Shown here piece by piece: positions 32,626-43,858 of a stretch of 50,331 nt of DNA. How positions within the stretch are numbered: position 1 is the stretch's first letter; each line of letters starts with the position of its first letter. The stretch is taken from contig JAOADJ010000007.1 in NCBI GenBank assembly GCA_026417375.1, positions 1 to 50,331 on the forward strand, given 5' to 3'. The translations under genes were made by a program, and so were the position numbers. The stretch is from Melioribacteraceae bacterium (GTDB lineage Bacteria; Bacteroidota; Ignavibacteria; Ignavibacteriales; Melioribacteraceae). The notes below the pieces were generated by a model. It was not told where the DNA came from, ran no database searches, and saw only the letters and a program-made list of their open reading frames with translations.

Positions 32626-32944
32626 TAATTTAATTTCAGTTCACTTTAGTGAACTGATAAAAGAAAAAAAGTAAGAATTTTTACATAATTTGTAATATCT
32701 AAAAATCTTTGTTTGCTTGATTTATAGATAGAAATCACATTAAAAATTTCAAGACGAATTTACCCCCAGAAGATTATAATTATTTATTGCTTTGTTAGTT
32801 TTTGCAGCTATCACCACTTGTATTATTTTGATTTATTTTATTTTTTTAAGTAATAAAAAATTTCTAGAAAATATTATTTGAGGGCTCAAGAATAAAATTA
32901 TATATTACATCAAAATAATTCTAAAATTAAAATTAAATAAATAA
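32626..32944 (+). other. Intergenic gap between recQ and the defence cassette
   Basis: 319 AT-rich bases. It holds one orphan hairpin (32637-32656, listed separately) and a short open stretch (32792-32881) that would encode a hydrophobic peptide but lacks an ATG and ribosome site. I see no tRNA, no att-like direct repeat and no exact promoter match. A promoter for the downstream cassette is expected here but cannot be pinpointed. Confidence 0.6.
32637..32656 (+). repeat. Orphan hairpin of the RAYT-associated family
   Basis: CAGTTCACTTTAGTGAACTG is a perfect 9-bp stem with a TT loop, identical to the third hairpin of unit 4 (42035-42054). It lies 11 bases after the recQ stop. The following bases (ataaaagaaa) also resemble unit 4. 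It may act as a recQ 3'-end hairpin, but no T-run follows. Confidence 0.85.
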
Positions 32945-35900
32945 ATGCTTATTGATAACAAAACAAAAATTAATGTAAATGAATACTATAAAGTTTTCGA
33001 CTTTATAAAAAATTATACTGATAAAGGTAATCTGGATATTGTTACTGGTTACTTTTCAGTAAATGCTTTAGCAATGATTAATGATGAGCTCAATTCAGTT
33101 GAAAAATTTCAAATGATTTTAGGAAATTTGATTAAGAATGAATTACTAGAAGATAAAATTATTGATCTTCTAAATGGAAATCCTGGAATTATTTCAACAC
33201 TTTCTTTAAGTACTACAGCAAAAAAAGCTGTCGAATTTTTACAACAAGACAAGGTAGTAGTTAAAACAATTCAAAAAAACTTTTGTCATGCAAAATCGTA
33301 TCTTTACAGTGACAAAACCATTACTAAAAATTATTTTATTGTTGGCAGTTCAAACCTTACAGATGCTGGTCTTGGAATTAAAGAAAGTTCAAATATAGAA
33401 TTAAACATTGCTAAACACGACTATGAAGATGAATTCAAAAGCCTGAAAATTTGGTTTGATGAATTGTGGGATAAAGTAGCGGTAGATAAAATCGAATTGT
33501 CCAATAAAACAAAAATCAATGTGAAGGAATATTTCATTGAACTGATTAAAAATCTTTTCAAAGAATACACACCAAAAGATCTTTATTACAAAATCCTTTA
33601 CGAAATGTTTAAGGACGATATTTTACAATTTACAGGTAGCGAAGAATTCAGACGTGAAATAACACATTTAGAAGAAACAATTGTTTATAAAACCCTATAC
33701 CCGTATCAACAAAAAGGCGCAATTAGTTTAATTAAAATGCTTCAAAAATTTAATGGAGCAATATTAGCTGATGCTGTTGGATTGGGTAAAACTTGGACTG
33801 CACTAGCTGTTATGAAATATTTCGAACTAAAGGGATACACTGTTCTACTCCTTTGTCCTAAAAAACTCTCAAACAACTGGCAGCAATACAAAGTAGGGCA
33901 GCAAAGCAGATTTGAAAAGGATGAAATTGATTTTTACATAAGGTATCACACTGATTTGCAAGAAGGACGTTTTGAAAGATACAACGATAAAACACTTCGA
34001 TATTTCAAAACAAGACCTAAACTTTTAGTTGTTATTGATGAAAGCCACAATTTACGTAACGACAAATCATCTCGCTACAAATTTCTGATCGAAGAATTGT
34101 TATTGCCTGAAAACAAAACGCGCGATGTAAAAGTATTACAACTTTCTGCAACACCAATAAATAATAAACTGATAGATATTCGTAATCAGTTCAAATTAAT
34201 GTCAAAAGGGCTGGATGATGGATTTAAAGAAACCGAATTAGAAATTGATAGCCTTGAAAGTATTTTTAGAATTGTTCAAAAAGATTTTAATGAATGGTCA
34301 AACCTTGAAGAACGAAAAATATCTGATCTTATTGCTAAGTTTCCTAAAAAATTTGAAAAATTGACTGATGCTTTAATTGTTGCTAGAACTAGAAAATTAA
34401 TAGAAAGTGAATTCGGTGAAATTAGTTTTCCCAGGAAAAATAAGCCTATTAATGAATTCATAACCCCTGAAAATATCGGGGAATTTAAATCATTTGAGGA
34501 TATACTTGAAGGGATTTCGATTAATATGACCGCTTACCGTCCTGCTGATTACATTGGAAATATCCAACCTAAAAGTGTTCTTGAAGACGAGAAACAACGC
34601 CAAAAGTTCTTGGTTAAAATGATGTATATCCTTTTGATGAAACGACTTGAATCAAGTTGGTTTTCATTCAAAAATACTATAGAGAACATTTTGAATCATC
34701 ACAAAAATGCTTTGAATAAAGTAGAGCAGTTTTTACAAAGTAAAAATGACAGTTCTATTGAAGATGATTTAACTGAAGAAGAAAAAGAAGAAATTGATGA
34801 AGCAGCATCAGAGATTAATGGCGAAATTAATGAAACAATTACTTTAGGAAAGAAAAGCCCAATTCCTCTTTCTTCTATTACTAACATTGAAAATTTTAAA
34901 ATGCACCTAGAAGCAGATATTGAAAAGCTTGATAAACTCAAAACTAATTTAGACAAATACCAAGAAGATTTTAACAACAGAAAAACGCAAGATGAAAAAC
35001 TGAACAAATTAATTAAACACATCACCAGTAAACAATCAACTTCGGAAAACAAGAAAGTTTTAATTTTTACAGTATTTGCAGACACTGCCAAATTTCTTTA
35101 TGATCAACTTATCAAAAGTGGCATCAAAAATTTAGCTTATGTTACAGGTTCTCATAGCGAATCTTATGATGGTTATTCTGGTGAAAAATTCGAAACTATT
35201 TTAGAACGTTTTGCTCCTTTCACAAAACTTTATAATGAAAAAGATTGGTCCGAATTTTATGAGAACCACCTTGGTTTTGATTCTACTTATTATAAGAATG
35301 GAAAATGGATTGTTCCCTATGAAAAATGGCTTGAACTTATAGAATTGTATGATAATTCAACAAAAACGAAAATTGAAAATCCAATTGATGTATTGATAGC
35401 AACAGATTGTTTAAGTGAAGGGCAGAATTTACAGGACTGCGATACTGTTGTGAATTATGATATTCATTGGAATCCGGTTCGTATTATACAGCGAATGGGT
35501 AGAATTGACCGCATTGGCTCACCAAACAAAACTATAACAGGAATTAATTTTTGGCCAAGTAAAAGCTACGACGATTATCTCAAACTCAAAAGACGAGTAG
35601 AAAGTAGAATGGCATTAATGACAGTCGTAGGAACAGAACTAGATGAAAAGATGACTCCTGAATTGGAAAAAATCCTCGAAGAAAATCCAATTATTTCAAA
35701 ACAATCACAAAAGATGTTAGAACAATTGCAAATAACTTGGGAAGATGTTGAAACCAATGAAGATACTCTTGGTTTTAATGACCTTTCTTTAGAGCAATTT
35801 CGACAAGAACTTTATGAGTTCTTCAAACAGAATGAAGATTTCTTCAGAAAAATACCAAACGGTGTTTTTACTGGTTTCAAATTTAGACCATTAGGTAAAT

Positions 35901-36346
35901 TTCAATCAATGCCAGATAGTATTATAGCTCTATTAGGATATCCCAAAAGACCTGATGAAGATGAAAATTTTATTTATAATGAAGTTCACTTATTACATCA
36001 AAACATTGATGAATTTTCTGAAAATAACGATAGTAGAAATAACAGTCGAATAGTTTTAATAAACAATCAGGAAATTTTAACTTTCCTTCGCTCTCATAAA
36101 CATGAGCAAAGATATGTTCCGAAAAATATTGACAACGGTGATACATCCGCTTTAAATAAACTCGCAGATGCCCTTGGCACTTGGATTAAAGCTCAAGTAA
36201 CACCCTTAGCTGTGAATGAAATTCAAGATTTGTTTACTGGTAATATTTCTCCAAAGAGTATTTCACCAGAACAAAAGAAATTAGAAGAAAAATTTAAACC
36301 CGAAAATTTTGATTTAATCAATTGGTTTGTTATATCAAACAGGTAA
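32945..36346 (+). CDS. PLD-nuclease / SNF2-type helicase fusion, putative defence protein
   Basis: The 1133-residue protein has an N-terminal phospholipase D-like domain (about 1-180) with a single HKD-type motif (His115, Lys117, then [12 protein letters not shown] and a Glu near 152), and a large SF2/SNF2 helicase: Walker A DAVGLGKT (276-283), DESHNLRN (365-372), [10 protein letters not shown], and the C-terminal lobe with [21 protein letters not shown] and [16 protein letters not shown] domains of this kind are nucleases that work as dimers. The gene precedes KilA-N and methyltransferase genes by 6-base gaps. I infer an effector or translocase-nuclease of a restriction-like system, similar in logic to HsdR but with a PLD nuclease. 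Known DISARM and BREX sets do not match. Confidence 0.85.
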
Positions 36347-36352
36347 TTGATT

Positions 36353-37177
36353 ATGGCAAAGAGTTCTAAAATTGATGTAAAAGGAACTGAAATAACTATT
36401 CTCAAAAATCTAAATGATGATTTTATTTCCTTAACAGATATTGCAAGACATAAGGATGCCGAGCATACCGATACCATTATCCAAAACTGGATGCGCAACC
36501 GGAATACGATTGAGTTATTGGGTTTTTGGGAAAGCATTTATAACCCCAATTTTAAACCCCTCGAATTCGAGGGCTTTAGAAAACAAGCTGGATTAAACAG
36601 TTTTGTTATGACTCCAAAAAAATGGATTGAATCAACTAAAGCAATAGGTATTATTTCAAAATCTGGACGTAATGGTGGAACTTTTGCTCACAAAGACATT
36701 GCTTTTGAATTTGCTTCCTGGATTTCCATTGAATTCAAACTTTATGTCATTAAAGAATTCCAACGCCTGAAAGCAGATGAAAACAACCGCTTGCAACTGG
36801 AGTGGAACCTGCAGCGAACTTTAGCCAAAATAAATTATCGCATCCATACTGATGCTATTAAAGATAATCTTATTCCAAAAGAACTTTCTAAATTACAAAT
36901 TCAGTTTATGTATGCCGATGAAGCCGATTTGTTGAATGTTGCTTTATTTGGGATTACTGCAAAACAATGGAGAGATATTAATCCCGAAAAAGAAGGAAAT
37001 ATTAGAGATTATGCAACAATAGAACAATTAGTTGTTTTGTCAAACCTCGAAAGCATTAATGCTGTACTTATTCATCAAGGTTTATCACAAACAGAAAGAC
37101 TAAAACAACTCAACCAAATTGCCATTCAACAGATGAAGTCTTTAGTTAATAATATTAACACCAATAAATTGAAGTAG
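36353..37177 (+). CDS. KilA-N domain protein
   Basis: A 274-residue protein with an N-terminal KilA-N DNA-binding domain (about 15-125: DFISLTDIARHKDAEHTDT, NWMRNRNTIELLGFWE, KSGRNGGTFAHKDIAFEFAS and EFKLYVIKEFQRLK), followed by a helical C-terminal region with WRDINPEKEGNIRDYATIEQ. KilA-N proteins come from large DNA viruses and phages and also sit within bacterial R-M operons; the function there is unclear (regulator or specificity accessory). Start set at the ATG at 36353; an in-frame TTG two codons earlier is less likely. It lies 6 bases after the helicase stop and 6 before the methyltransferase. Confidence 0.88.
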   Translation: MAKSSKIDVKGTEITILKNLNDDFISLTDIARHKDAEHTDTIIQNWMRNRNTIELLGFWESIYNPNFKPLEFEGFRKQAGLNSFVMTPKKWIESTKAIGIISKSGRNGGTFAHKDIAFEFASWISIEFKLYVIKEFQRLKADENNRLQLEWNLQRTLAKINYRIHTDAIKDNLIPKELSKLQIQFMYADEADLLNVALFGITAKQWRDINPEKEGNIRDYATIEQLVVLSNLESINAVLIHQGLSQTERLKQLNQIAIQQMKSLVNNINTNKLK

Positions 37178-37183
37178 CCAACA

Positions 37184-40100
37184 ATGAATCTTTCTATATT
37201 TAATACTACCAATCTTTTTGAAGCAGCAACAGACTTATTTCAACAGCTCGGTATAAAACTTAACTCCAACACCGCTTTACCAATTCCAACAAAAGATATT
37301 TTAAAAGAACATTATAGAAACAACGACACTTTTAATGCCATAGACAAAACCTACTTTATTGGAATTATTGAAGATAGTGTTTTTCAAAATACTTTGTTTG
37401 AAGAAAAATACAACGCTCAAAATGCTCTCCAACACGCTGAAAAAAACTACAATGGTTTAATGCTTTTTGCTTTAGAATTAACAAAGCAGCCAACAAGAAC
37501 TGAAATTTCTGAAATTACAAGAGTTTTTAACCGCATTAGCCAAAAAATGCCTGTTGCATTGGTACTTAAATATTTTGTTGAAAATGAAGCTGTAATTTCC
37601 ATTTCAATTAGTGAACGCTTTAAATTCCTGCAAAACTGGAGACAAGGAGAGAAAGCTGGAAAAGTTATTATTCTTCGTGATATTCGTACTCAAAATCCTC
37701 ATACAGGTCACTTGCTTATTTTGAAAGACCTTCAAAATCACAATGCTTTAGATTTCAATCAGCTTCATCAACATTGGTTACAAATATTAGATGTAAGTAT
37801 TCTAAATAAAAAATTCTTCAAGGAAATTTCTAACTGGTATTTTTCTGCACTTAACAAAGTTTCTTTTCCTGATGATTTAGAGAAAAATAAAGAGATACGC
37901 AATGCAACTAACCTCATTCGTCTTATTACAAGAATTATTTTTATTTGGTTTATTAAAGAAAAAAAATTGGTTCCAGCTTCATTGTTCAACAAAGATTTTC
38001 TAAGAGAAATTTTAAAAGATTTCAACAAAAACGAAAAATCGCACAACTATTACAACGCTATTTTGCAAAACCTCTTTTTTGCAACACTCAACCAAAAAAT
38101 TAAAAATCGGAAGTTCACCAAAGATGGGGATATCAAAACCAACAAAGAAGAATATGGTGTAAAAAACCTGTTCCGTTATGCTGACTTGTTTACTATTTCT
38201 GAAAAAGAAGTATTAGACTTATTCAAAGACATTCCTTTCTTAAATGGTGGTTTATTTGACTGTTTAGACAAGCCTGATGAAGACGGGAAAATAGAATATG
38301 TTGATGGATTTAGTCGTAATCCAAAGAAACGTGCTATTGTGCCCGATTACATTTTCTTTAGCGAAGAAAAAGAAGTTGACCTAAACGAAGTTTACGGAAC
38401 AAAAAACAAACAATATATTTCTAGAGGTTTGATAAACATTTTACAGAGTTACAAATTTACAGTTGCTGAAAACACTCCGATAGAAGAAGAAATTGCCCTT
38501 GACCCGGAATTATTGGGTAAAGTTTTTGAAAACCTATTGGCAAGTTATAATCCGGAAACAAAAACAACTGCAAGAAAGCAGACCGGTAGCTTTTACACTC
38601 CCCGCGAAATTGTAAATTATATGGTGGATAATTCAATAATCGCATATTTAAAACAACAAATTATATCTAAACCAAATGGAAAAATTGAATTAGGAAGTCA
38701 GCAAGTAGATATGTTTGGTAACGATGCTCGTGTAGGACAACTAAAACTTGAAACCCCAGTTGAACCCAATCGCTGGAAAGACAAAGAGAAAATACTTGAG
38801 AAAAATTTAAGAAAATTATTAAGCTATGAAACTGATCAGCCCTTTGATAATACAGAAGATGTTAAAAATATTATTTTTTATATCTACAACTGCAAAATAT
38901 TAGACCCTGCCTGCGGTTCAGGTGCTTTTCCAATGGGTATTTTACAAAAAATGGTACACATTCTTAAAAAACTTGATCCTGAAAATATATTCTGGCGCGA
39001 ACTGCAACGCAAAAAAGCTATTGATGAAACCCAATCTGCCTTTAATATTGGAAATAAAGAAGAAAGAGCAAAACGATTAGCTGAGATAAACGATGTATTT
39101 GAAAATAATTCTAGCGATTATGGTCGTAAACTCTATTTGATTGAAAACTGTATTTATGGAATAGATATACAACCAATTGCTGTGCAAATTGCCAAGCTAC
39201 GTTTTTTTATTTCGTTGGTGATTGACCAAAAAGTAGATAAAAGCAAAGAAAATTTTGGAGTTCGCAGTTTGCCTAATCTTGAAACCAAATTTGTGGCTGC
39301 CAATGCACTGATTGGATTAGATAAACCAGAGCAAACCACTTTACGCAACCCCGAAATAGAATCGAAAGAAAACGAATTGAAAGAACTTCGCCACAAATAT
39401 TTTACCGCCAGCACACGTAAAGAAAAAATATCTTTGCAAAAGCAAGATAAAAAACTACGACTCGAAATTGCCAAGATGCTACAGAAAGATGGCTGGGATA
39501 ATAAGGTAGCAGAACAAATTGCCTCCTTTGATCCCTACGACCAAAACCACTTTGCCGATTGGTTTGACCCAGAGTGGATGTTTGGAATAATAGTATCCGA
39601 ATCTTCTGGATTTGATATTGTAATTGGTAATCCGCCGTATATTCAATTGCAAAAAGATAGTGGCAGATTATCTAAGTTATATCAAAACCAAAAATATAAA
39701 ACATTTGCTTCTACTGGTGATATCTATACTTTGTTTTATGAAAAAGGAATGAATTTATTAAAACTCAATGGGCATTTGTGCTACATTACTTCTAATAAAT
39801 GGATGCGGGCTGGTTATGGTGAAAAGCTTAGACAATATTTCTCAGAGCTTAAACCCATTTTATTGATTGATTTAGGTCCTGGTGTTTTTGAAAATGCTAC
39901 CGTAGATACTAATATTCTTTTGGTACAAAAAAACTTTAATAAAACACACAAGCTAATAGCACTTACTTTACAAAAACAAAATGGTGAAGTAGATATCTCT
40001 GCTCAAGTAGAAAAAAATAGTGTTGTTTTGAATAAATTAAACAAAGATGCCTGGTTTATTGGTAGCAGTGCTGAACAACAGCTCAAAGAAAAGATTGAAC

Positions 40101-40996
40101 GTATTGGCAAGCCACTCAAAGAATGGGATGTGAATATCTATCGTGGAGTATTAACAGGTTTAAACGAAGCATTTATCATTACCACCGAAAAGCGTAACGA
40201 AATACTTACCAATTGTAAAGACGAAGAAGAACGTCGCCACACCGAAGCAATCATTAAACCTATCTTGCGTGGCAGAGATATCAAACGTTACTACTACGAT
40301 TGGGCGGGGCTGTGGGTGATTGGAACTTTTCCAGCACTGAAACTAAATATTGAAGATTATCCAGCATTAAAAAAATATTTTCTTGATAATTTTGACATTC
40401 GGCAATTGGAACAATCGGGTAAAAAATATCCTAAATTAGGCTTTGATGCACGTAAGAAAACAGGCAATAAATGGTTTGAAACCCAAGATCAAATTGTCTA
40501 CTACCCAGAGTTTGAGAAGGAAAAGGTGGTGTGGACACCAGTTAATTCTGAATATAGTTTTACTATTCTCCCTAAAGGTATTTACTTTAATAATTCTATT
40601 TTTATGATAACGGGTATTAATGTAAAATACTTTTGTGGGTTGTTTAATTCAAAAATAATTAGATATTATTTAACATTTCTATTTTCATCAGAAGAAAATT
40701 ACACATATGCATCTAAAGTAAATATGGAAAATATCCCTCTTTCCCCCATCACCTCCTCCAATCAGCCGATTGTGTCACAAATAGAATCGCTGGTAGACCA
40801 AATCCTCGCGGCCAAAAAGCCTGCTTCGGCAAGCTCAGCATCCACTCCGCAAACCGACATCAGCCACTGGGAGCGCGAGATAGACATATTAGTTTACAAA
40901 CTCTATAACCTCACCTACGAAGAAGTTAAAATAATAGACCCAGCAATAGAACAAACAATATCAAAAGAAGAGTATGAGAAGCTAAATATTAATTAG
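37184..40996 (+). CDS. Eco57I/PglX-like N6-adenine DNA methyltransferase
   Basis: A 1270-residue gamma-class adenine methyltransferase. SAM motif I DPACGSGAFPMG is near residue 573 and catalytic motif IV IGNPPYIQL near 813, a large separation typical of PglX and type IIG enzymes. The preceding GSFYTPREIVNYMVD is the helical N6-MTase region. A target-recognition-like region follows (IYRGVLTGLNEAFIIT, PILRGRDIKRYYYDW). I could not see a convincing PD-(D/E)xK nuclease in the first 300 residues, so cutting may depend on the PLD-helicase encoded upstream. The far C-terminus carries a small low-complexity linker PASASSAST, probably from a repeat insertion. GC content near the 3' part is higher than in neighbouring core genes, suggesting transfer. 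Confidence 0.87.
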   Translation: MNLSIFNTTNLFEAATDLFQQLGIKLNSNTALPIPTKDILKEHYRNNDTFNAIDKTYFIGIIEDSVFQNTLFEEKYNAQNALQHAEKNYNGLMLFALELTKQPTRTEISEITRVFNRISQKMPVALVLKYFVENEAVISISISERFKFLQNWRQGEKAGKVIILRDIRTQNPHTGHLLILKDLQNHNALDFNQLHQHWLQILDVSILNKKFFKEISNWYFSALNKVSFPDDLEKNKEIRNATNLIRLITRIIFIWFIKEKKLVPASLFNKDFLREILKDFNKNEKSHNYYNAILQNLFFATLNQKIKNRKFTKDGDIKTNKEEYGVKNLFRYADLFTISEKEVLDLFKDIPFLNGGLFDCLDKPDEDGKIEYVDGFSRNPKKRAIVPDYIFFSEEKEVDLNEVYGTKNKQYISRGLINILQSYKFTVAENTPIEEEIALDPELLGKVFENLLASYNPETKTTARKQTGSFYTPREIVNYMVDNSIIAYLKQQIISKPNGKIELGSQQVDMFGNDARVGQLKLETPVEPNRWKDKEKILEKNLRKLLSYETDQPFDNTEDVKNIIFYIYNCKILDPACGSGAFPMGILQKMVHILKKLDPENIFWRELQRKKAIDETQSAFNIGNKEERAKRLAEINDVFENNSSDYGRKLYLIENCIYGIDIQPIAVQIAKLRFFISLVIDQKVDKSKENFGVRSLPNLETKFVAANALIGLDKPEQTTLRNPEIESKENELKELRHKYFTASTRKEKISLQKQDKKLRLEIAKMLQKDGWDNKVAEQIASFDPYDQNHFADWFDPEWMFGIIVSESSGFDIVIGNPPYIQLQKDSGRLSKLYQNQKYKTFASTGDIYTLFYEKGMNLLKLNGHLCYITSNKWMRAGYGEKLRQYFSELKPILLIDLGPGVFENATVDTNILLVQKNFNKTHKLIALTLQKQNGEVDISAQVEKNSVVLNKLNKDAWFIGSSAEQQLKEKIERIGKPLKEWDVNIYRGVLTGLNEAFIITTEKRNEILTNCKDEEERRHTEAIIKPILRGRDIKRYYYDWAGLWVIGTFPALKLNIEDYPALKKYFLDNFDIRQLEQSGKKYPKLGFDARKKTGNKWFETQDQIVYYPEFEKEKVVWTPVNSEYSFTILPKGIYFNNSIFMITGINVKYFCGLFNSKIIRYYLTFLFSSEENYTYASKVNMENIPLSPITSSNQPIVSQIESLVDQILAAKKPASASSASTPQTDISHWEREIDILVYKLYNLTYEEVKIIDPAIEQTISKEEYEKLNIN
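40821..40840 (+). repeat. In-frame REP-like insertion inside the methyltransferase gene
   Basis: CTGCTTCGGCAAGCTCAGCA is GC-rich against its surroundings and resembles the widespread CTTCGxCAAGCTCAG repeat. It encodes the low-complexity linker PASASSA just before the conserved REIDILVYKLYNL end of the enzyme. Similarity to that repeat class is from memory. Confidence 0.45.
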
Positions 40997-41003
40997 TAAT
41001 AAA

Positions 41004-41152
41004 ATGTGGCTAAAGCCATTATATTTTTCCCATAATTCAATCACTTGGCTGAAGCCAAGTGCTATAAAAAATAAATTTTTAATATAATTGCACTTGACTT
41101 TAGTCAAGTGAGAAAGAAAAGAGCAAGAATAAAATTCTGGCTTCAGCCACAT
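41004..41152 (+). repeat. Hairpin unit 1
   Basis: Hairpins: A 41007-41018 (TGGCT-AA-AGCCA), B 41042-41061 (CACTTGGCT-GA-AGCCAAGTG), C 41091-41110 (CACTTGACT-TT-AGTCAAGTG), D 41138-41149 (TGGCT-TC-AGCCA). It may also act as the transcription end of the methyltransferase operon. Confidence 0.85.
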
Positions 41153-41163
41153 TAAATCAATAT

Positions 41164-41315
41164 ATGAGGCTAAAGCCTTTTTGCTTTTTATTTTCTCAAT
41201 CATTCACTTGGCTAAAGCCAAGTGCTATAAGAAATAAATTTTTAATATAATTGCACTTGACTTTAGTCAAGTGAGAAAGAAAAGAGCAAGAATAAAATTC
41301 TGGCTTCAGCCACAT
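41164..41315 (+). repeat. Hairpin unit 2
   Basis: A 41167-41178 (AGGCT-AA-AGCCT), B 41205-41224, C 41254-41273, D 41301-41312. B, C and D repeat those of unit 1 exactly 163 bases later, with only a loop change (GA to AA) in B and isolated changes between hairpins. The 11-base gap before it (taaatcaatat) recurs before unit 3. Confidence 0.85.
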
Positions 41316-41326
41316 TAAATCAATAT

Positions 41327-41475
41327 ATGAGGCTAAAGCCATTTTGCTTTTTATTTTCTCAATCATTCACTTGGCTAAAGCCAAGTGCTATAAGAAATTA
41401 ATTTTTAATTTAATTACAGTTCACTTCAGTGAACTGAATTAAAAAATCAAAAAATATTCTTGGCTTTAGCCACAT
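41327..41475 (+). repeat. Hairpin unit 3, directly upstream of the transposase gene
   Basis: A 41331-41340 (GGCT-AA-AGCC), B 41368-41387, C 41417-41436 (CAGTTCACT-TC-AGTGAACTG, a different stem from units 1-2), D 41461-41472. D lies 19 bases before the transposase ATG, close to its ribosome site AAGGAG at 41479-41484, so it could affect translation or binding of the transposase to its own leader. Confidence 0.85.
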
Positions 41476-41491
41476 CACAAGGAGTTAAAAA

Positions 41492-41938
41492 ATGAGTTGG
41501 GTCAGAGTTTGGATTCATCTTGTATTCTCCACTAAAAACAGAGAGCCAGTACTTCACACCAAAGAATTAAGAGAAAAAGTATTTAATCACATAAAAGAAA
41601 ATGCAAAAGAAAAAGGAATCTGGCTCGATTCAATTAATGGCTACAAAGAACACATACATTGTTTAATCTCTCTAAGCAAAGAACAATCAATCAGCAAAGT
41701 AGCTCAACTAATCAAAGGGGAATCTTCCTTTTGGATAAACAAAAATAAATTGACTAAAACTAAATTTATTTGGCAAGATGATTATTGGGCTGTAAGTGTA
41801 AGTGAAAGCCATATTGAAAGTGTTAGGAAATATATTGAAGAACAAGAAGAACATCACAGATTAAAAACATTTACAGAAGAAGTTGATGAGTTTATGAAAA
41901 AATATGGTTGGAGTTTTGTTAAGAATGATTCTGGTTAA
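41492..41938 (+). CDS. RAYT-like Y1 transposase (IS200/IS605 TnpA superfamily)
   Basis: The 148-residue protein is a single-strand DNA transposase of the Y1/HUH type. The HUH motif is HIH (54-56) in YKEHIHCLIS, and the nucleophile is Tyr114 in VRKYIEEQEEHH; the family segment WQDDYWAVSVSES (about 95-107) is present. It makes a 5'-phosphotyrosine link to DNA at hairpin-marked sites. Full length with no frameshift, ribosome site AAGGAG 7 bases before ATG. It is flanked on both sides by hairpin units and has no tnpB or accessory gene, as expected for a domesticated RAYT rather than an IS200/605 element. Confidence 0.9.
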   Translation: MSWVRVWIHLVFSTKNREPVLHTKELREKVFNHIKENAKEKGIWLDSINGYKEHIHCLISLSKEQSISKVAQLIKGESSFWINKNKLTKTKFIWQDDYWAVSVSESHIESVRKYIEEQEEHHRLKTFTEEVDEFMKKYGWSFVKNDSG

Positions 41939-41940
41939 GA

Positions 41941-42095
41941 ATGAGGCTAAAGCCTTAAATTTTTCCAAGATTATTTTAATCACTTGGCTTAAGCCAAGTG
42001 CTATAAAAGTAAATAAATTTTTTTAATATTATAGCAGTTCACTTTAGTGAACTGAGAAAAGAAATTTATAGATATAAATCCGGCTTTAGCCACAT
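41941..42095 (+). repeat. Hairpin unit 4, directly downstream of the transposase gene
   Basis: A 41944-41955, B 41981-42000 (CACTTGGCTTAAGCCAAGTG, a perfect palindrome), C 42035-42054 (CAGTTCACT-TT-AGTGAACTG), D 42082-42091 (GGCT-TT-AGCC). It starts 2 bases after the transposase stop, so it also ends that transcript with a stack of hairpins. Confidence 0.85.
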
Positions 42096-42103
42096 TGGAA
42101 GAA

Positions 42104-42292
42104 ATGAGGCTAAAGCCTTATATATTTTCATAATTCTATAATCAGTCAGCTAAAGCAGACTGCAATTTTCTTAATAAATTCATTATCACTTGACTTCAGT
42201 GAGAAAAGAAGAAAAATATTTTTATAATTTAATAACACTTGACTTTAGTCAAGTGAAAAAGAATTAAAAAATCTATTTGGCTTTAGCCACAT
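42104..42292 (+). repeat. Hairpin unit 5, with an extra decayed hairpin
   Basis: A 42107-42118, an altered B at 42143-42162 (CAGTCAGCT-AA-AGCAGACTG, one A-A mismatch), a decayed C at 42187-42201, an intact C at 42236-42255 (CACTTGACT-TT-AGTCAAGTG), D 42278-42289. The 8-base gap before it (tggaagaa) is close to the sequence around the transposase stop. Confidence 0.8.
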
Positions 42293-42300
42293 TGTAAGAA

Positions 42301-42355
42301 ATGAGGCTAAAGCCTTTAGCTCTTTTTCAATAATTTAATCACTTGGCTGAATCCA
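42301..42355 (+). repeat. Hairpin unit 6, truncated
   Basis: A 42304-42315 is intact; B begins at 42340 (CACTTGGCTGAATCCA) and then diverges, so this unit is cut off or degraded. It marks the right edge of the array. The 105 bases up to the next start codon hold only the sthA promoter. Confidence 0.7.
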
Positions 42356-42406
42356 TATGAAAATTAGAAAAAATTTTTTTCAATATAATTTCAATTCAAT
42401 ATTAAA

Positions 42407-42439
42407 TTTCTATTAATTTGTTTTCATTCCATATATTTG
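42407..42439 (+). promoter_or_regulatory. Bacteroidota-type promoter for sthA
   Basis: TTTC at 42407-42410 (one mismatch to TTTG) is followed after 21 bases by an exact TATATTTG at 42432-42439, with the ATG 21 bases further on. Confidence 0.45.
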
Positions 42440-42460
42440 TAAAAAAAGAAAAATATTTAT

Positions 42461-43858
42461 ATGAATAAATTTGATGTATTTATAATTGGTAGCGGGCCTG
42501 GTGGCGAAGGTGCTGCTATGACTTGTGCTAAACAAGGTCTTAAAGTTGCCGTTTGTGATGAATTCTCTTTAGTTGGTGGAAGCAACACTCACAAAGGAAC
42601 AATTCCATCAAAAGCTTTACGTCATGCAAGTCAAATTTTAATGGATAACAAAAAATTACAAAATGCTCGTTATCAGGATTTACTTCTTAAAACAAGAGAA
42701 GTGATAAATTCACAGGTTGAATTACGAACAAGTTTCTATTTAAGAAATGATGTTGAATTAATTATTGGCAGAGCTTCTTTCATTGATGAAAACACAGTTG
42801 AAGTAGTTGAGCCATCAGGATTAAAGAAAAAATATCATGCTGAATATTTTATAATAGCAACTGGCTCACGTCCTTATCATCCACCAGATGTTGATTTTTC
42901 TCATCCCAGAATTGTTGATAGTGACAAACTTCTAAAAATTCCGGATAACCCAAAAACAATTTCAATTTATGGTGCTGGAGTAATTGGTTGTGAATATGCA
43001 TCTATTTTTCGTGGGTTAAGTATAAAAGTTAATCTTATTAATACACGTCATCAATTACTTTCATTTTTAGATGACGAAATTATTGATGCCCTTGCTTATC
43101 ATCTGAGAGAAAATGGAGTATTAATTCGTCATAATGAAGAGTATGAAAAAGTAGAAGCTGATGATAACGGTGTAACTATTTATTTAAAGTCCAATAAACA
43201 AATTAGAAGTGATTATTTACTTTGGGCTCAGGGACGAACCGGAAACTCTGATAGAATGAATTTAGAAAAATTAGGAATTGAAACAGATACGCGCGGTTCA
43301 ATTCCTGTTAATGAATTTTATCAAACTAAAATTCCAAATATTTATGCAGTCGGAGATGTTATTGGTTTTCCAAGTTTAGCAAGTGCTGCTTATGATCAAG
43401 GAAGATTTGCTGCACGGCATCTTACTCTTGGTGAAACTTCTGTGCTAAGACTCGAAGATATTCCAACAGGAATTTACACAATTCCAGAAATAAGTTCGGT
43501 TGGAATGACTGAAAAAGAATTAACTGCAAAAAAAATTCCTTATGAAGTTGGACATGCATTTTTCCGACACCTTGCAAGAGCACAAATTACAGGTAGAACA
43601 GTTGGTATGTTAAAAATTTTATTTCATCAGGAAACATTTGAAATTTTGGGAATACATTGTTTTGGTTATGAAGCATCTGAAATTATTCACATTGGTCAGG
43701 CAATTATGTCTCAAAAAAATGGTGGAAATACAATTAAATATTTTACAACAACTACATTCAACTATCCAACTATGGCAGAAGCATATCGTGTTGCAGCATT
43801 AAATGGTTTGAACAGAATTGAACTTGGTAAAATTCATGAAAAGAAAAAAACAAAATAA
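42461..43858 (+). CDS. sthA: Soluble pyridine nucleotide transhydrogenase (SthA-like)
   Basis: FAD enzyme that moves hydride between NADPH and NADH. The 465-residue protein has the FAD loop [12 protein letters not shown] (residues 8-19), [10 protein letters not shown], a second Rossmann [13 protein letters not shown], and the C-terminal dimer domain with [17 protein letters not shown]. In disulfide reductases of this fold an active CxxxxC follows; here the segment is [16 protein letters not shown], with no cysteine, as expected for a transhydrogenase that lacks a redox disulfide. E. coli SthA keeps one of the two, so even that is gone here. It begins just outside the hairpin array and overlaps the next gene by 23 bases. 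Confidence 0.92.

Follow-up and report, generated by a model that had tools for sequence, protein, structure and literature searches.

A probable REPtron-like locus of TnpA_Y1 subclass 1.2 with double-hairpin repeats in a Melioribacteraceae bacterium

Introduction

Enzymes of the IS200 type recognize hairpins in single-stranded DNA, and the position of the cut is chosen via a guide that lies 5' of the hairpin (PMC6006769). For a group 3 REP, the dinucleotide at the cut has been found to follow cross-pairing with position 4 of the guide together with position 3 or 2 (PMC8266576). Within the class 1 TnpA_Y1 proteins, subclass 1.2 is characterized by a Y---Q--HH motif, a HuH motif of the form DH[IV]H, a WQ, a length of ~148 aa, a C-terminal domain of its own, low copy number and occurrence in Bacteroidetes (PMC6006769), and in the available portions of the work that defines it the subclass is listed without REPs and generally without IS200-type terminal structures (Quentin et al. 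2018, PMC6006769). We recognized no description of REPs for this subclass among the open-licence PMC papers that our searches returned.

Here we analyze a hairpin array in a stretch of 50,331 nucleotides (hereafter the window; contig JAOADJ010000007.1) from a Melioribacteraceae bacterium. We conclude that it is probably a REPtron-like locus of TnpA_Y1 subclass 1.2 together with its cognate REP, a bipartite, double-hairpin repeat whose left (L) and right (R) forms are arranged as inverted, BIME/REPIN-like tandem units.

Results

The hairpin array and its half-units

A preliminary description of the array had noted about twenty perfect hairpins around a Y1 transposase, and direct reading together with palindrome scans bears this out: 21 hairpins lie within 41007-42315 (six A and five each of B, C and D), 18 of them with perfect stems, of 5 bp in A and D and 9 bp in B and C. 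The three remaining stems are imperfect: an A at 41330, a B at 42143 (8/9 pairs) and a D at 42081. Hairpin A reads ATG(A/T)GGCTAAAGCC(T/A) and hairpin D reads (T/C)GGCT-TY-AGCCACAT; the outermost pair of both is variable, and the inverted 14-base ends attributed to each unit are accordingly approximate. Adjacent 163-bp copies within the array are identical at 159/163 positions, and the Y1_Tnp gene (41492-41938, plus strand) is the sole gene inside it. A search of 40500-42900 against Rfam at a permissive threshold returned 12 matches, every one below its gathering score.

The order A-B-C-D, described earlier as a four-hairpin unit, is indeed seen, but the unit is better described as two double-hairpin half-units in inverted orientation: C-D has the form of A-B in reverse complement and shares its spacing, its loop orientation and the ATG ahead of hairpin 1. 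Half-units are also found singly and in C-D/A-B order, for which reason we reject A-B-C-D as one transposon. Five R-type half-units (hairpins A and B, plus strand) alternate with five L-type half-units (hairpins C and D, minus strand), and a degraded sixth R-type copy closes the array. Upstream of the gene are R1 (41002-41067, detector/model), L1 (41085-41154, a model match), R2 (41162-41230, supported by detector, model and DNA folding), L2 (41248-41317), R3 (41325-41393, with the imperfect outer pair in A) and L3 (41411-41477), which stands directly 5' of the gene. Directly 3' of the gene is R4 (41939-42006), followed by L4 (42029-42097, with the imperfect outer pair in D), R5 (42102-42168, with one mismatch in B) and L5 (42230-42294); from L2 to L5 each half-unit was found by both detector and model. 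By eye, an extra truncated C hairpin (~42182-42201, no strand assigned) can be read within unit 5 where a copy of repeat family D1 begins, and a B remnant (~42341-42358) beyond it belongs to the degraded R6 (42299-42365, plus strand, model E 4.6e-6), in which A is intact.

The half-unit detector gave nine matches on the real array slice (4 + 5 on the two strands), compared with a total of three over 1000 dinucleotide shuffles of the array, and no match in the remaining window outside the array. A lone degraded L-type copy at 32631-32688 (minus strand, C intact and D lost) was missed by the detector and later found by the model (E 2.4e-7).

Two features of the surroundings are recorded here as side observations. 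Beside the array, window positions 32945-40996 hold genes for a PLD-SNF2 helicase, a KilA-N protein (PADLOC PDC-S22, 1.4e-138) and a type IIG restriction-methyltransferase-like protein, a three-gene stretch that is probably a defense island. In genome G005, which is taken to be Stygiobacter electus, a different gene lies upstream of the array than in the window.

Architecture and covariation of the half-unit

Each half-unit, ~65 nt in size, consists of a guide (ATG here, as AATG or TATG), hairpin 1 with a TRAA loop, a spacer of 18-32 nt, hairpin 2 (its loop again TRAA), and a tail that is often C[A/T]AT, commonly CAAT or CTAT. These features were counted in alignment A1, which holds 66 of the 72 near-group half-units from 136 found overall; we removed the other six manually (one from each of L006 and L064, two from each of L009 and L071). 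The loop is TAAA or TGAA in 65/66 half-units for hairpin 1 and likewise in 65/66 for hairpin 2, and the tail starts with CA or CT in 43/66. The GT[AG]G foot that stands 5' of the hairpin in class 2 RAYT systems is absent; in its place 61/66 aligned half-units have the ATG guide.

The stems of the half-unit covary strongly. Across the 66 half-units, 95.3% of 792 cells are paired, and changes on both sides of a pair occur in 136 cells, against a shuffled mean of 36.9, and affect 10/12 pairs, counts that are inflated by the relatedness of the half-units. None of 500 shuffles matched the pairing, the both-side changes or the covariation score, the number of further pair types was equaled by 56/500 shuffles, and when the stem registers were slid only 10-34% of cells were paired. 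The same can be followed within the genus. The array lies beside an oxidoreductase gene and occupies the same place in the putative S. electus genome, but window units 1-4 have CACTTGGCT as their B stem, where that other array has CAGTTGGAT or CAGTCAGCT; since the array is syntenic and the stem differs, both arms of the B stem have changed jointly. When half-units were folded as single-stranded DNA, two of three were predicted to form both hairpins and one only hairpin 2, and the whole unit was predicted to fold best as one long hairpin.

L and R repeats have different stems and are placed inverted. Around the gene, an L repeat lies on the upstream side and an R repeat on the downstream side, each pointing outward. 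Across loci, hairpin-2 stems are identical in 69/128 same-orientation pairs compared with 13/189 opposite pairs, and at 39/46 loci having both orientations no hairpin-2 stem is common to the two. When 30 usable loci were scored, 22 were more alike within orientation, one was less so and seven were tied. This difference between L and R stems recalls the two REP subtypes of E. coli, Y and Z2 (PMC6006769).

Another family of palindromes, GTAGAGACGCGCTATAGCGCGTCTCTAC and GTAGAGACGTTGCATGCAACGTCTCTAC, adjoins half-units in the window's own genome (L006, 120-230 and 440-770; L145, 1260-1420 and 1640-1690).

The transposase

The window protein matches Pfam Y1_Tnp with an E value of 5.5e-27 and exceeds the cut-off of NCBIfam transpos_IS200 (68.1 bits, cut-off 55), whereas it falls below that of REP_Tyr_transpos (39.3 bits, cut-off 80). 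It is 148 aa long, with an EHIH (E where D stands in DH[IV]H), the motif YIEEQEEHH, a WQ and a conserved C-terminus containing KYGW; Y...Q..HH is present in 14/14 rows of alignment A2. By these features the protein matches TnpA_Y1 subclass 1.2 of Quentin 2018 (PMC6006769), an assignment made with the published motifs. The transposase had been called RAYT-like and the only gene of the array. It is the sole Y1_Tnp gene there, but the sub-threshold score against the REP model and the subclass 1.2 motif lead us to reject a class 2 RAYT identity.

In a profile search, the transposase matches among structures were all class 1-like TnpA, and in a Foldseek search the IS608 and ISDra2 TnpA chains came first with the E. 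coli TnpA_REP chain (4er8) thirtieth, although superposition on 4er8 has a lower rmsd (3.3) than that on the better-scoring IS608 and ISDra2 chains. The AlphaFold model used has a mean pLDDT of 82.6 and leaves a monomer or a dimer unsettled.

The nearest named relative is a protein of Stygiobacter electus (84%), in agreement with the Ignavibacteria setting proposed earlier for the host. The system is not peculiar to that setting, as a relative at E <= 1e-20 is encoded in 121/296 sampled genomes of the phylum, the window's own genome included.

Association of half-units with the gene

The half-unit detector was shaped on a discovery set of 44 loci, which includes three broken genes or fragments (L047, L053 and L062) and one locus (L044) that the script read as lacking the exact motif; an outward half-unit lies within 200 bp of the gene at 35/44 loci. 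One of five set-aside loci, L078, a distant relative meant as a control, also scored. We then assembled a test set of 58 loci by a written rule from protein matches, the list of which already existed when the rule was set down. For a subclass listed as having no associated REP, outward double hairpins were found within 300 bp of the gene at 33/58 of these loci, 30 of the 33 with G+C-containing stems, and 0/2,900 shuffled flanks passed; inward half-units were present at 19/58. An overlapping earlier selection of 58 loci, which departed from the rule by passing over 11 eligible loci in favor of 11 further down the list, chosen with their flanks unseen, had given 32/54 among the 54 loci scored, with 2/2,700 shuffles passing.

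The association is strongest in nearer relatives and fades with distance: by rank, the upper half of the test set scored at 21/29 loci and the lower half at 12/29 (three of these with AT-rich hairpins only), and with the same detector a more distant extra set, the 11 loci from further down the list, gave 2/11 with an outward half-unit. As a control, we hand-picked 23 Y1 loci outside the group; 19 were scorable, all 19 lacking the signature motif, and 0/19 passed at either 300 or 600 bp.

By genome, a hand count found model matches in 35/46 relatives with a protein match and in 4/12 without, the model favoring near relatives. The four genomes without a protein match (G010, G011, G023 and G050) have 6, 9, 3 and 4 model matches, respectively, and these repeats are perhaps orphans after gene loss. 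At two distant members that do have the motif, L054 and L059, the gene has hairpin arrays of other kinds on its flanks (CCCATAGATttATCTATGGG; GAACTTCtacGAAGTTC), which suggests further repeat types.

Guide, tail and the protein tree

To relate the repeats to their proteins, we used a tree of 93 proteins with 66 labeled rows, 39/90 of whose inner branches have support <80, and removed labels having fewer than three rows before counting changes. The guide changes 10 times on this tree, compared with a mean of 27.9 and a lowest value of 23 in 200 label shuffles; the corresponding values are 11, 23.3 and 19 for the tail and 9, 13.6 and 12 for the hairpin-1 core. Guide, hairpin-1 core and tail thus follow the protein tree. 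Paralogues within one genome also carry separate hairpin types (G005 C11/C34, G007 C25/C13 and G028 C100/C64); no half-unit was found at a third G005 paralogue (C10), whose locus is at a contig edge.

Under the cross-pairing rule of the group 3 REP (PMC8266576), an AATG guide predicts a CA or CT tail and an AAA guide predicts TT. Counted by half-unit, ATG guides have a CA or CT tail in 49/73 cases and AAA guides a TT tail in 19/21. The TTT guide class misfits, as AA is predicted and the tails are tt (9), ca (5), ct (2) and gt (1) (n = 17). By a hand count of loci on the tree, the predicted tail is present at 8/12 ATG and 8/17 AAA loci. Guide-tail cross-pairing in this family is a post hoc proposal that the counts partly contradict.

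Copies in the genome and an empty site

A search of the window's own genome for further units, as had been proposed, returned 46 matches to the model (E <= 0.1), spread over nine contigs. Four of these contigs (8, 13, 20 and 50) supplied model sequences and match by construction; the other five (2, 4, 44, 46 and 53) supplied none, nor did the copy at 32631. Further copies have probably been missed, since arrays lie at contig ends of the draft assembly. The number is in the tens, whereas E. coli K12 has around 600 REPs (PMC8266576).

The comparison for empty sites, also proposed in the preliminary description, came down effectively to one testable site, on C50, where an element present here is absent in G001, G002 and G003. 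The flanks are 345-360 bp apart here compared with 61 bp in G002, 149 bp in G003 and 78 bp in G001, and GGCT-NN-AGCC was not found in the junctions of these three genomes; G004 was excluded because its flanks are on different contigs. The C50 element also contains a nested repeat. As far as the alignment of flanks can tell, the site shows either a gain here or a loss in three congeners, and it does not tell which enzyme acted. At the C44 site just one flank is conserved in the comparison genomes. The C20 flanks are on different contigs in G001, G004 and G034, lie ~1.5 Mb apart in the one-contig G035, and are represented by a single flank in G002 and G003, which leaves no junction for comparison. 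The C20 array (G000 C20 ~160600-162240, L146) is the largest away from the gene and may mark a rearrangement junction. An absence of further units, or units at the same sites in all relatives, had been named as outcomes that would speak against the earlier reading; what we found are further units and an empty site.

In G028, many copies lie inside TIR-bounded repeats and some lack such ends. The inverted ends of these repeats read CAATGCTGTCAACTTA, and inside them are double-hairpin units or different hairpin arrays (L149-L167 and L324-L335); by eye there are apparent 9-bp flanking duplications at L157, L159 and L160. A second mobile element probably spreads the REP units in this genome. Copies of the repeat lacking the hairpin unit have other contents, and no clean empty version was seen among 12 stretches.

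Some insertion sequences target REPs, e.g. ISPpu9. Reminiscent of these, a repeat with ends like GGCTGTGTGAAAATT seems, by eye, to have entered hairpin C at its loop in two genomes (L010 ~1604-1740; L151, L165 and L161, the last being the same site as L329).

Discussion

The gene of the window is flanked by inverted-pair repeats that are also present elsewhere, which is the arrangement of a REPtron, and the view of the locus as a REP/BIME-like array of a Y1 transposase was right in kind. An alternative is that it is an IS200/IS605-type insertion sequence, or a set of its decayed miniatures, in which the half-units are ends that transpose with the gene. The protein does group with IS200 TnpA, half-units lie on both sides of the gene, and there are paralogues within single genomes. 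We nevertheless consider this unlikely: here two hairpins make up each end and are inverted on the two sides of the gene, instead of one subterminal hairpin per end on the same strand (PMC6006769), a single gene match stands against 46 half-unit matches (although the draft assembly may miss copies), and the position of the gene beside the oxidoreductase gene, shared with the putative S. electus genome, fits vertical residence.

Could the units instead be cargo, dispersed by other mobile elements while the Y1 protein moves none? The many G028 copies within inverted-end repeats, with their apparent target duplications, are what this would predict, but we saw no such ends around the own-genome copies read by eye, some G028 copies are also without them, and the link between hairpin type and protein type would be left unexplained; we regard this reading as quite improbable. 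Least probable of all, to the point of being remote, is that the hairpins are transcription terminators or RNA-stabilizing structures with a function in RNA, the transposase being a bystander. There are seven terminator-like sites where shuffles average 0.7, and the C50 copy seems by eye to start ~5 nt past a stop codon, yet the same architecture is found repeatedly next to genes of this type and at 0/19 other Y1 genes, and the guide and the tail, neither of them part of a stem, track the transposase tree.

On the REPtron-like reading, we infer a mechanism in which an IS200-like HUH transposase, probably as a dimer, would bind a half-unit by both of its hairpins in single-stranded DNA, e.g. 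the lagging-strand template. The guide at hairpin 1 would cross-pair with the tail, on the 3' side of hairpin 2, and in this way set the position of the nick; half-units and units would then be amplified and scattered as the enzyme cuts and rejoins them. More tentatively, and with somewhat more doubt than belief, we propose that subclass 1.2 as a whole may represent an unrecognized, phylum-wide REP family in which a dimer reads two hairpins, L and R are kept distinct and a guide that coevolves with the protein sets the cut.

The repeat is likely to be the cognate DNA element of a transposase subclass that was described as having none, and its occurrence suggests that class 1 Y1 transposases, and not those of class 2 alone, gave rise to REP-like systems. 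Because stems, guide and tail vary by clade and paralogue, it becomes possible to test directly how single-strand HUH enzymes recognize their DNA and choose the cut site, with dozens of natural protein-repeat pairs already available; if the proposal is true, the guide-tail pairs across species would amount to a natural series of retargeted single-strand nucleases.

How does the locus relate to described systems? TnpA_Y1 class 3 and subclass 2.6 likewise have REP-like structures without GT[AG]G, but these are other protein classes, and a two-hairpin repeat is not mentioned for them in the available portions of that study (PMC6006769). The IS200/IS605 elements IS608 and ISDra2 provide the closest solved structures and profile, and a hairpin plus a 5' guide is the chemistry that would be expected from them; they differ in that one-strand, single-hairpin ends were not seen here and that one gene match accompanies many repeats. 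The REPtrons of class 2 RAYTs share flanking repeats, inverted pairs, tandem arrays, a short conserved 5' sequence, two subtypes and copies elsewhere. In contrast to theirs, the repeat described here has two hairpins in a fixed order and spacing, its guide is ATG, AAA, TTT or another sequence instead of GT[AG]G, and its protein is class 1-like. The closest likeness in the protein itself is to TnpA_Y1 subclass 1.2 as published (PMC6006769), with which it shares the Y---Q--HH and HuH motifs, the WQ, the length of ~148 aa, the C-terminal stretch, the low copy number and the occurrence in Bacteroidetes, and from whose published account it departs in that many of the genes studied here are flanked by double-hairpin repeats.
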